The position numbers and the translations under genes are program-made. Positions 52,197 through 53,824 of a DNA stretch of 64,000 nt are shown in pieces (position 1 is the first letter of the stretch; every line of letters begins with the position of its first letter). The notes beneath the pieces were generated by a model. The model searched no databases and was not told where the DNA came from. It was given only the letters and a program-made list of their open reading frames with translations. This DNA comes from Prevotella sp. E13-27 (GTDB lineage Bacteria; Bacteroidota; Bacteroidia; Bacteroidales; Bacteroidaceae), in the NCBI RefSeq assembly GCF_023217965.1, contig NZ_JALPSC010000002.1, positions 1,667,356-1,731,355 of the forward strand. The letters run 5' to 3'.

Positions 52197-53444
52197 CTAC
52201 ATTATTACCCCCCCCGTTTCGCGCATCCACGTCGAGACGCTCTGGCCTGTGCGCAGCATGAACGCACGGCTGAAGGTGCGGTAAGTGCTGAAGCCGCTCT
52301 CCTCGGCCAGTTGCTGGGCGACGATGGGTTGGCCGGCCTTGGCAGCCTCCTGACAACGGCTGACGAAATAGTTGATGCGCAGGTTGTTGATATAGGTGTT
52401 GTAGGTGATGCTCTGGCGGGAGAAATACTGGCTCAGATATGAGCGGTTTGTGCCGATGGCCGATGCCAGTTGCGGCAGGGTGAGGTCGGGCTGCAAGTAA
52501 AGTTGCGTGTCGGCGCAGTGCTTTTTCAGCAACTGCTCAATTTGGTCGAGGTCGATGCTGACGAGAGACTCGCCACCAGACCCGCCCTGTGAGGGAGCGG
52601 GGGCTATAGACTTTTCTTCTATAATTTCAGTTTCGTCAGTAGTGGTTTTACGCTCCAGTTCTTCAGCGGAAGGACTAACTACGCTCATCCCTACAGGGAG
52701 GGGCTGGGGTTGGGGCTGGTTTTCTTGCTCCTCCAACTGCGGCAACGTCTCCACACGCCACAACAGCAGACCGAAGAGCACGAAGTCGGCAATGCGGATG
52801 AGGAAGAACGACGGGTCGTCGGCAGCGAATCCATAGACCACGACGAGCAGCAGAAGCAACAGCAGAAGCGTATGGCTGAGCCACACCTCCTTGTGCTCCA
52901 GGTCGGCATAGTTGTCGAGCAGCCACCGCCCGTATTGCCTGACGGCGAACACCATATATACGGTAAAGGCAACATAGGCCACCAGTGAATAGACGAGGGC
53001 AGGGACGAGGAATTGTCTGGTGGGGAAAGCCATCTGCAACACACCGAGCACGGCAATGGGAATCGAGGCCACGGCAACGGGCCACACGGGGCGGCGACGG
53101 TCCTGCAGCATGGCGAGCAGCGTACCAGCAAGGGTGATGAGCAGCGACACGCAGTCGAGCACTTCGCCCATGACATAGCCCGGGGAATAGTCCGTGCCAT
53201 ACATCAACTGGTTGTCACGGAAATAGAGGTAGAGGAGGAACCACCACGCATGGCCCAGCGCTCCCGCAGCATAGAACGCTGCCGCCCAGCGGCGCAGGCG
53301 CACAGGCGGCATGGTGCCTGGCGAGATGACGTTCACACGGCTCAGTAGCAGGTAGAGGCACAGCACGACGCACAGGGTCGCCGCTCCGCCGTAGAGCATG
53401 AAGTACAATATAGACTGTGGTGATGTATGTTCGAGCAGATTCAT
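52197..53444 (-). CDS. Multi-pass membrane sensor fused to an AraC-type DNA-binding domain
   Basis: 415 aa. About seven TM helices (ILYFMLYGGAATLCVVLCLY, CVSLLITLAGTLLAML, ALVYSLVAYVAFTVYMVFAV, LLLLLLLLVVVYGFA, IADFVLFGLLLW) fill residues 1-225. The linker (225-300) contains two repeat-derived peptides (PQPQPLPVGM; IAPAPSQGGSGGE). The C-terminus (300-415) is an AraC domain: LTLPQLASAIGTNRSYLSQY, INNLRINYFVSRCQEAA, LAEESGFSTYRTFSRAFMLR, TGQSVSTWM. It would sense a membrane-borne or external cue and act at DNA from the membrane. Its ATG overlaps the stop of a small ORF containing the (GA)n tract. Expected regulator of the fimbrial operon. Confidence 0.85.
   Translation of the reverse strand: MNLLEHTSPQSILYFMLYGGAATLCVVLCLYLLLSRVNVISPGTMPPVRLRRWAAAFYAAGALGHAWWFLLYLYFRDNQLMYGTDYSPGYVMGEVLDCVSLLITLAGTLLAMLQDRRRPVWPVAVASIPIAVLGVLQMAFPTRQFLVPALVYSLVAYVAFTVYMVFAVRQYGRWLLDNYADLEHKEVWLSHTLLLLLLLLVVVYGFAADDPSFFLIRIADFVLFGLLLWRVETLPQLEEQENQPQPQPLPVGMSVVSPSAEELERKTTTDETEIIEEKSIAPAPSQGGSGGESLVSIDLDQIEQLLKKHCADTQLYLQPDLTLPQLASAIGTNRSYLSQYFSRQSITYNTYINNLRINYFVSRCQEAAKAGQPIVAQQLAEESGFSTYRTFSRAFMLRTGQSVSTWMRETGGVIM
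52570..52715. repeat. Two GC-rich interspersed repeats in the AraC-sensor linker
   Basis: CCGCCCTGTGAGGGAGCGGG (near 52578) and CAGGGAGGGGCTGGGGTTGG (near 52693), translated in frame as APAPSQGGSGG and PQPQPLPVG. Confidence 0.5.
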
Positions 53445-53659
53445 TTCCTTAATTGTATTTGCGTTGCAGAAAAGGTCGCTTTAGCAAGCGGCATGGCATA
53501 AAAACATAGCGGCTTCCCATTGCTTTTTGCATGGAAAGCCGTATATTGACGCGCACAGGCGCGTATATTATTAAATGTGGTGGACTGGCGGTTAGCGCAT
53601 ATGAGAGAGAGAGAGAGAGAGAGAGAGAGAGAGAGTAGCAAAATTATTGGAATGGCCAA
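53441..53659 (-). CDS. Possible leader ORF spanning the (CT)n tract, overlapping the AraC-sensor start
   Basis: 72 codons from a TTG at 53659: AIPIILLLSLSLSLSLSL is encoded largely by the dinucleotide tract, then ICANRQSTTFNNIRACAR. The TGA stop overlaps the AraC-sensor ATG (ATGA). The only nearby ATG (53672) is in another frame and meets a stop right after the tract; adding one CT unit (or removing two) would put it in frame with this ORF. Whether it is translated is unknown. The TAATTTTG sequence at 53641-53648 may instead be a -7 box that puts the tract in the 5' UTR. Confidence 0.35.
   Translation of the reverse strand: MAIPIILLLSLSLSLSLSLICANRQSTTFNNIRACARQYTAFHAKSNGKPLCFYAMPLAKATFSATQIQLRK
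53603..53635. repeat. (GA)16 dinucleotide microsatellite
   Basis: 33 bp of uninterrupted GA on the plus strand, 159-191 bp upstream of the AraC-sensor start. A tract of this length is prone to slipped-strand mispairing, the classical basis of phase variation. Confidence 0.95.
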
Positions 53660-53824
53660 GGAAATCGGTCATTCTTTTCACTGCGTTGGCATTATTTAAC
53701 TCTCTGCGGGGCATGGGGATTACTCTGCTGGGGTTTTCGGTACCTTGTAAAATGATTAGTCTTCGTCCAAGTCGTTAAGGTCGAAGGACGGCATATGTTT
53801 GCCTGAACTCGTCGAAACTCATGG
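53660..53824. other. Non-coding or degenerate stretch
   Basis: After the 51-aa gene the minus strand shows MSFDEFRQTYAVLRP then a stop, and in another frame MPSFDLNDLDED then a stop. These look like the two ends of a small gene with an internal deletion. No intact ORF. Confidence 0.35.

Follow-up and report, generated by a model that had tools for sequence, protein, structure and literature searches.

In the window, a stretch of 64,000 nucleotides from Prevotella sp. E13-27, a fimbrial operon is encoded on the minus strand together with a gene for a regulator, and upstream of the latter lies a short leader ORF with a CT dinucleotide tract inside it. The features of this locus are given below in 5' to 3' order along the minus strand.

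53592..53714, minus strand: leader ORF in its present phase, with the tract inside it (ATG at 53714, TAA at 53594-53592; 40 aa)
53636..53659, minus strand: conserved 24-nt segment directly 5' of the tract, with a TTGG-N5-CCAA inverted repeat and including TAATTTTG at 53646-53639
53603..53635, minus strand: (CT)16.5 tract, the variable element (TRF; 31 bp in the orthologous locus L194 and 21 bp in the orthologous locus L219)
53549..53564, minus strand: hairpin 1 (ACGCGCCTGTGCGCGT), seen in single-sequence folds and absent from consensus folds
53510..53541, minus strand: hairpin 2, a terminator-like stem (-22.5 kcal/mol; extended stem about 53547-53503)
53500..53504, minus strand: T-run 3' of hairpin 2, read from the sequence
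53449..53451, minus strand: TAA closing one read-through phase (that of L194), beginning 7 nt before the regulator ATG
53441..53443, minus strand: TGA that closes the second read-through phase and shares nucleotides with the regulator ATG
52197..53444, minus strand: regulator of 415 aa with HTH_18 at its C-terminus (AraC-type HTH); N-terminal part hydrophobic by eye
51239..52012, minus strand: 257-aa protein like the N-terminal part of the regulator (41% identity to regulator residues 42-240)
49940..51172, minus strand: OmpA-family outer-membrane protein (Pfam)
48995..49939, minus strand: Mfa2-type fimbrial anchor protein (Pfam)
48068..48988, minus strand: fimbrillin-like protein, Mfa_like_1 (Pfam)
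47012..48025, minus strand: fimbrillin-like protein, Mfa_like_1 (Pfam)
45484..46974, minus strand: fimbrillin-like protein with a Big_2 domain (Pfam)

The N-terminal part of the regulator is probably membrane-spanning, as judged by eye, and no Pfam family was assigned to the 257-aa protein encoded at 51239..52012.

The tract was detected by TRF as a perfect (GA)/(CT) run of period 2 at 53603-53635, with 16.5 units and 33 bp, in agreement with the original prediction of a 33-bp dinucleotide tract in a small ORF. When the 3.96-Mb genome was searched with an 8-unit GA pattern, matches were found in two places only, the window tract and G000:C1:1046771, both of them within the same leader module, and therefore the window tract is more than a chance run. 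The same prediction had the leader frame begin at an ATG at 53672 and stop right after the tract; the early stop was confirmed (53594-53592), whereas 53672 turned out to be an internal ATG of a frame that opens at ATG 53714.

Past the tract, the three possible phases run into stops at +8 nt (the present phase, also that of L219), +151 nt (the phase of L194) and +159 nt, with the regulator starting at +158. Two of the three phases end at the regulator start, their stops beginning -1 and 7 nt from its ATG, and the predicted overlap of a TGA with this ATG was found at 53443-53441 of the minus strand. The region past the tract had a folding energy of -33.7 kcal/mol with a z-score of -3.8. A simple terminator scan of the window did not list hairpin 2, probably owing to the distance of 5 nt from its core stem to the beginning of the T-run, and returned instead a weaker minus-strand site at 53490-53477. 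A search of positions 53300-54200 against Rfam 15 gave no matches up to E=1, and thus no Rfam leader or riboswitch family.

When 60 relatives were searched with a 10-unit GA pattern, tracts appeared in 7 genomes, and a common upstream segment was recognised by eye at the tracts of six of these seven, the exception being G054. This 24-nt segment was noticed before CT tracts that had been picked on repeat content alone; later searches selected for it. A motif search was then positive in 62 of the 398 genomes of the genus, compared to 7 of 398 for the reversed control, and several of the matches with three mismatches were clearly due to chance. In G372 alone there were 20 hits, of which one was due to chance, and this single genome thus has 19 loci. 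In a scan of one genome per species, all titles among the 80 listed of the 90 stretches were those of Prevotella, Hallella, Hoylesella, or a Prevotellaceae, Bacteroidaceae or Bacteroidales bacterium, and these listed records included P. bivia, P. jejuni, P. pallens, P. denticola and ruminant bins.

In total, 172 loci were oriented, many of them the same assembly in two collections, which left 131 distinct loci and 117 with 125 nt past the tract. Of these 117, 101 remained below 97% identity, and 94 once eight odd loci had been removed, these being loci with an interrupted tract, truncated or without the hairpin; four of the eight were in a read-through phase. The loci formed two groups by their leader frame, clade A and clade B. 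In clade A, with examples in P. jejuni, P. bivia, P. pallens and Hallella seregens, the leader ends in NYLVVPNNFV-LSLSLS or close to it, and the window leader, which reads MPRRELNNANAVKRMTDFLGHSNNFAT-LSLSLS, falls into clade B, with P. communis.

The layout common to these loci was a leader ORF with the CT tract, followed by hairpins with a terminator-like stem and a T-run, and then usually by a gene for an exported protein. Ahead of the motif, the leader frame was fully open over 105 nt in 54 of 57 loci of clade A and over 54 nt in 34 of 35 loci of clade B; the other two frames were open in 7 and 6 clade-A loci and in 3 and 3 clade-B loci. When nine leaders from one genome were compared, synonymous changes were not clearly in excess in the leader's own frame (110 synonymous to 236 nonsynonymous, versus 141 to 261 in one other frame), and therefore it is clearly the openness of the frame, rather than the peptide, that is kept. 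An ATG at least 10 codons before the tract was absent in 15 of 59 clade-A leaders, and one clade-A locus (L150) had stops in the usual leader frame.

In most loci the tract was followed by a GC-rich hairpin 1 and by hairpin 2 with its T-run, as revealed by 14 loci folded singly and by alignments. Consensus folds, made without the one clade-A locus (of 59) and the three clade-B loci (of 35) that were not aligned, recovered hairpin 2 only, with some compensatory changes, and hairpin 1 was missing. The pairs of hairpin 2 held through changes on both sides were 6 of 7 in clade A and 2 of 9 in clade B, and the consensus folding energies were weak (-5.9 and -1.6 kcal/mol, respectively). An automatic search of the 117 loci for a stem immediately followed by a T-rich run found one of -8 kcal/mol or better in 91, a weaker one in 12 and none in 14. 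T-runs of at least five were present in 39 of 59 loci of clade A and 26 of 35 of clade B, compared to 2 and 4 loci with A-runs at that place.

The T-run was passed by some frame in almost all loci that have one (49 of 54 in clade A, 27 of 30 in clade B). At least one frame past the tract was open for at least 100 nt in 56 of 59 clade-A and 32 of 35 clade-B loci, with shuffle means of 33.6 and 19.1. In clade A, 30 of 59 loci combined one phase open for at least 100 nt with two that reach a stop in the first 20 nt, compared to a mean of 2.4 and a highest value of 7 in 200 rounds of shuffling. This pattern of one open and two closed phases was not enriched in clade B (2 of 35 versus a shuffle mean of 1.3), where two phases were often long. 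In many clade-A loci (L147-L156, L227, L230 and others), hairpin 2 and the lipoprotein gene were also separated by a small ORF of about 55-85 aa.

The prediction that repeat length acts as a switch was supported by differences in tract length (33, 31 and 21 bp) between near-identical orthologous loci. Compared to the 33 bp of the window, the tract measured 31 bp in one ortholog (97.8% identity over 600 nt downstream) and 21 bp in the other (96.3% over the same length), with flanks 96-98.5% identical among the three. Two more sets of loci, with flanks 91-99.8% identical, had tracts of 21 versus 31 bp and of 51 versus 23 bp, and two loci from separate genomes with identical flanks (L182 and L183) had equal tracts of 36 bp. 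Over the 94 loci, the median tract length was 26 bp, with quartiles of 19 and 36.75.

When the phase was counted at every distinct locus with 125 nt past the tract, with a 100-nt cut and using the longer open frame, 17 of the 101 loci were in a read-through phase, compared to 42.3 expected at random repeat number (P=7e-9, the loci being treated as independent in phase for this and the following P value). With the eight odd loci excluded the count was 13 of 94 versus 39.0 expected, and the depletion also holds with all of them kept. When one locus per genome was taken from the 94, read-through amounted to 9.3 of 56 versus 25.1 expected, with a median P of 1e-6. In G372, 1 of 16 distinct loci was in read-through versus 5.3 expected, as was a near-duplicate that had been dropped (L324). 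The depletion was carried by tracts of at least 15 nt (9 of 79 versus 32.0 expected) and was absent from shorter ones (8 of 22 versus 10.3 expected). Such a bias would be expected if the surface genes are costly and mostly kept silent, and it would also fit the reverse polarity considered below.

A co-oriented ORF of at least 150 aa (100 aa at contig ends) was present downstream in 85 of the 94 loci. By a simple heuristic applied without a control set, 81 of these 85 products carried an export signal, 49 as a lipobox and 32 as another signal or a membrane segment. The four negatives were the window regulator, which looks membrane-bound, L173, which looks signal-bearing by eye, L189, which runs off its contig, and L273, where the frame taken was probably wrong. 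Among 18 downstream proteins searched against Pfam, a BspA-type LRR, fn3, a beta-helix repeat, a carboxypeptidase-regulatory-like domain, OmpA with DUF3575, and Big_2 were found once each, and nothing was found in 12.

The window is unusual in that the putative switch precedes a regulator. A switch tied to the regulator family was also considered and dropped, with a CT run of at least six units in none of the 19 stretches around relatives of the regulator (L052-L070; the twentieth stretch, L051, contains the other tract of the own genome, and some of the stretches were cut by contig ends). Therefore, it is the leader module, not the regulator, that would carry the switch.

From the arrangement of these elements, we think it quite likely that the window module is a contingency switch, namely a phase-variable attenuator that works by translation-dependent transcription attenuation. 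Transcription would enter the short leader ORF holding the CT tract, and replication slippage, as a fast source of the length differences, would add or remove CT units and in this way change the frame past the tract. In the stop phase, which is the present one, the ribosome would come off about 10 nt past the tract and about 50 nt before hairpin 2, so that hairpin 2 and the T-run would form and transcription would end before the regulator and the fimbrial genes (OFF). In a read-through phase (ON), the ribosome would cross hairpin 2, the terminator would be blocked and transcription would continue; at the window, this ribosome would also reach the start codon of the regulator, and translational coupling may add to the effect. 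In general terms, CT-tract leaders probably turn surface genes on and off at random through the extent of leader translation. It also seems somewhat likely that Prevotella and its relatives use multi-locus CT-repeat leader-frame attenuators, up to 19 per genome, to expose stochastically a few of their surface lipoproteins, fimbriae and BspA-like proteins while most are silent.

Translational coupling alone, in which a read-through leader would hand its ribosomes over at the gene start and hairpin 2 would not stop transcription, appears unlikely. It fits the window, where the leader terminates at the regulator start in either read-through phase, and also L051, L163, L166, L179, L180 and L235, where the frame is in line with or overlaps the gene and the genes resemble that of the window OmpA-family protein by eye. 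Across the family, however, only 27 of 85 loci have a long frame whose stop begins -4 to +15 nt from the ATG that follows, whereas frames passing the T-run are near general, and therefore attenuation is favoured over coupling. The earlier proposal that a change in CT units joins the leader to the regulator was right in that the frame decides between an early stop and reaching the gene, but coupling as the mechanism was only partly supported; it is possible in addition to attenuation at the window locus.

A reversed polarity, with the short leader as the expressed state and read-through being silencing or harmful so that selection keeps the short phase, is quite unlikely. With the 100-nt cut, 84 of 101 loci are in the short phase, which makes it the commoner one, but this polarity would not account for the conservation of a terminator-like hairpin past the short stop, and in S. 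gallolyticus the short leader is both the low state and the majority, according to the portions of the report drawn on here (PMC3894217). The same switch could also work by Rho-dependent polarity on the untranslated leader RNA instead of intrinsic termination at hairpin 2, which we consider very unlikely: the distance of about 95 nt from the present stop to the end of the T-run, and a T-run that does not adjoin the core stem, are consistent with it, whereas hairpin 2 and T-runs kept in most loci argue against it.

A further possibility, raised in the original prediction, was that TAATTTTG, placed there at 53641-53648, is a promoter box and that tract length tunes the transcription start or the 5' UTR. 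The true site is 53646-53639 (53648-53641 reads AATAATTT), and such a promoter is highly improbable. The -7 consensus of the Bacteroidales is TAnnTTTG, which TAATTTTG fits; its spacing to the tract downstream is also fixed, and there is no better box at the window locus, TAnnTTTG being absent in the 300 nt upstream. However, TAATTTTG lies inside the conserved leader reading frame, and 77 of 87 loci have a TAnnTTTG on the sense strand 20-300 nt upstream of the motif, compared to 13 on the antisense strand. Unlike in a promoter-spacing switch, the tract of the family lies in the leader ORF, downstream of these upstream boxes; as it is also downstream of TAATTTTG, its length would leave the spacing unchanged, and the frame-specific phase bias would be unexplained. 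Finally, that the element is a neutral microsatellite or a spread repeat with no regulatory role is hardly credible, as the up to 19 copies per genome and the several contigs that end near the tract have to be set against the co-oriented ORFs and their predicted export signals, the open leader frame, hairpin 2 and the phase bias.

The nearest candidate box at the window, TACTTTTA at 54023-54016, has one mismatch to the consensus, and a small ORF lies between it and the leader. This ORF of 51 aa (MARPIKETPILYGEDARRFEARMQERRR..., 53980-53825, minus strand) stands behind the promoter-like TACTTTTA and upstream of the leader, and the transcript for the leader could come from there. The 24-nt TTGG-N5-CCAA segment with TAATTTTG was at one point read as an operator plus promoter; this was dropped because of the open leader frame, of which the segment is the 3' part, and of the TAnnTTTG boxes upstream in most loci. 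In clade A as in clade B, TTGG-N5-CCAA occupies a constant position in the 24 nt preceding the tract, and it is one base out of register relative to the shared NNF codons, which may reflect conservation at the DNA or RNA level.

In S. gallolyticus, pil1 and pil3 have GCAGA repeats in a leader peptide and a premature terminator, and experiments on pil1 showed that a long leader gives high transcription and that translation is needed, as described in the parts of that report considered here (PMC3894217). The attenuation switch proposed for Prevotella resembles these loci, as far as those parts go, in that a simple repeat lies in a leader ORF, its number sets the frame and the genes under control would be those of surface appendages, here a fimbrial operon. 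The short leader of pil1 and pil3 ends some tens of nt short of a stem-loop that has a T-run, and the long one enters or passes it, a layout like that of the window. The pil1-type traits found here were a repeat in a leader ORF upstream of a gene, variation in repeat number among relatives, and a stop before versus beyond a terminator-like stem. In pil1 and pil3, the short, low state is the majority; here the short phase is also the majority and would be the low state. Unlike the GCAGA repeats of Streptococcus, the present repeat is a CT dinucleotide in another phylum, with many loci per genome and in many species. Given the different repeat unit and phylum, the likeness to pil1 is apparently convergent.

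In the accounts used in part here, repeats outside the main coding frame also tune adhesin expression at Helicobacter sabA and Neisseria nadA. The same applies to Moraxella uspA2. The repeats of sabA, nadA and uspA2 work via promoter spacing, promoter tuning or the 5' UTR, not via a leader frame and a terminator. Phase variation in the Bacteroidales is known chiefly in the form of DNA inversion.

It is also presented mainly as such in the consulted portions of two reviews (PMC11868660, PMC12632263). The Bacteroides invertible promoters with UpxY antitermination, as covered in sections of one of them, are likewise a stochastic switching of surface structures in Bacteroidales, but they rely on DNA inversion, whereas here repeat length would change (PMC12632263). 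In the main text of the 2025 phase-variation review, leader peptide, gallolyticus, Prevotella and attenuation are all absent (PMC11868660), and in the portion considered of the 2025 Bacteroidales review, inversions are mentioned and the words 'slipped' and 'repeats' are absent (PMC12632263). Among the full texts of open-licence PMC papers, none was found on such a Prevotella switch. In attenuation of the E. coli trp type, as outlined in part of the S. gallolyticus report, the position of the leader ribosome similarly decides whether the terminator forms, but there ribosome stalling reads a metabolite, whereas here a mutable repeat would set the frame (PMC3894217). The B. thetaiotaomicron transcriptome, in the excerpt considered, has sORFs in 5' UTRs that are reminiscent of attenuation leaders (PMC7366714).

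If true, the proposed attenuator would bring surface variation by repeat slippage to a phylum known for DNA inversions, placed at the window above a fimbrial regulator. The switch would be readable from sequence, with tract length predicting ON or OFF for each locus; if so, surface variation in Prevotella could be tested with isolates and long reads that already exist, and the S. gallolyticus attenuation switch would have a counterpart elsewhere on a far larger scale.

Outside this family, CT tracts were present in 37 of 344 Bacteroidales genomes (own genome included), inspected by eye; in other Bacteroidales families, the motif was absent at the loci read by eye in genomes other than the own one. 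Five loci of family f20 (L328-L330, L338 and L339, in G054, G705 and G530) had CT tracts, some in short ORFs, followed by a different downstream segment, and G530 had 14 CT-tract places; the tracts of f20 are possibly a parallel switch. Further Bacteroidales families (L334, L341-L345, L350, L355, L358 and others) had CT tracts and then segments that look loosely alike by eye, for example CAGGGTTTGCGGAG.

One leader module (L144, G085:C1) had a CT tract of 527 bp, with flanks and length identical in L275 (Prevotella koreensis KCOM 3155), and this length may be an assembly artefact. Several contigs (G106:C47, G239:C16, G407:C55 and G215:C99) end about 75-220 nt past the tract, as if the repeat or a duplicated leader were breaking the assemblies. 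In the window itself, positions 54712-62166 on the minus strand encode a primase-like protein with a CHC2 finger and an AlbA_2 protein with an HTH; taken with a ParA-like ORF recognised by eye, this region looks like part of a mobile element.
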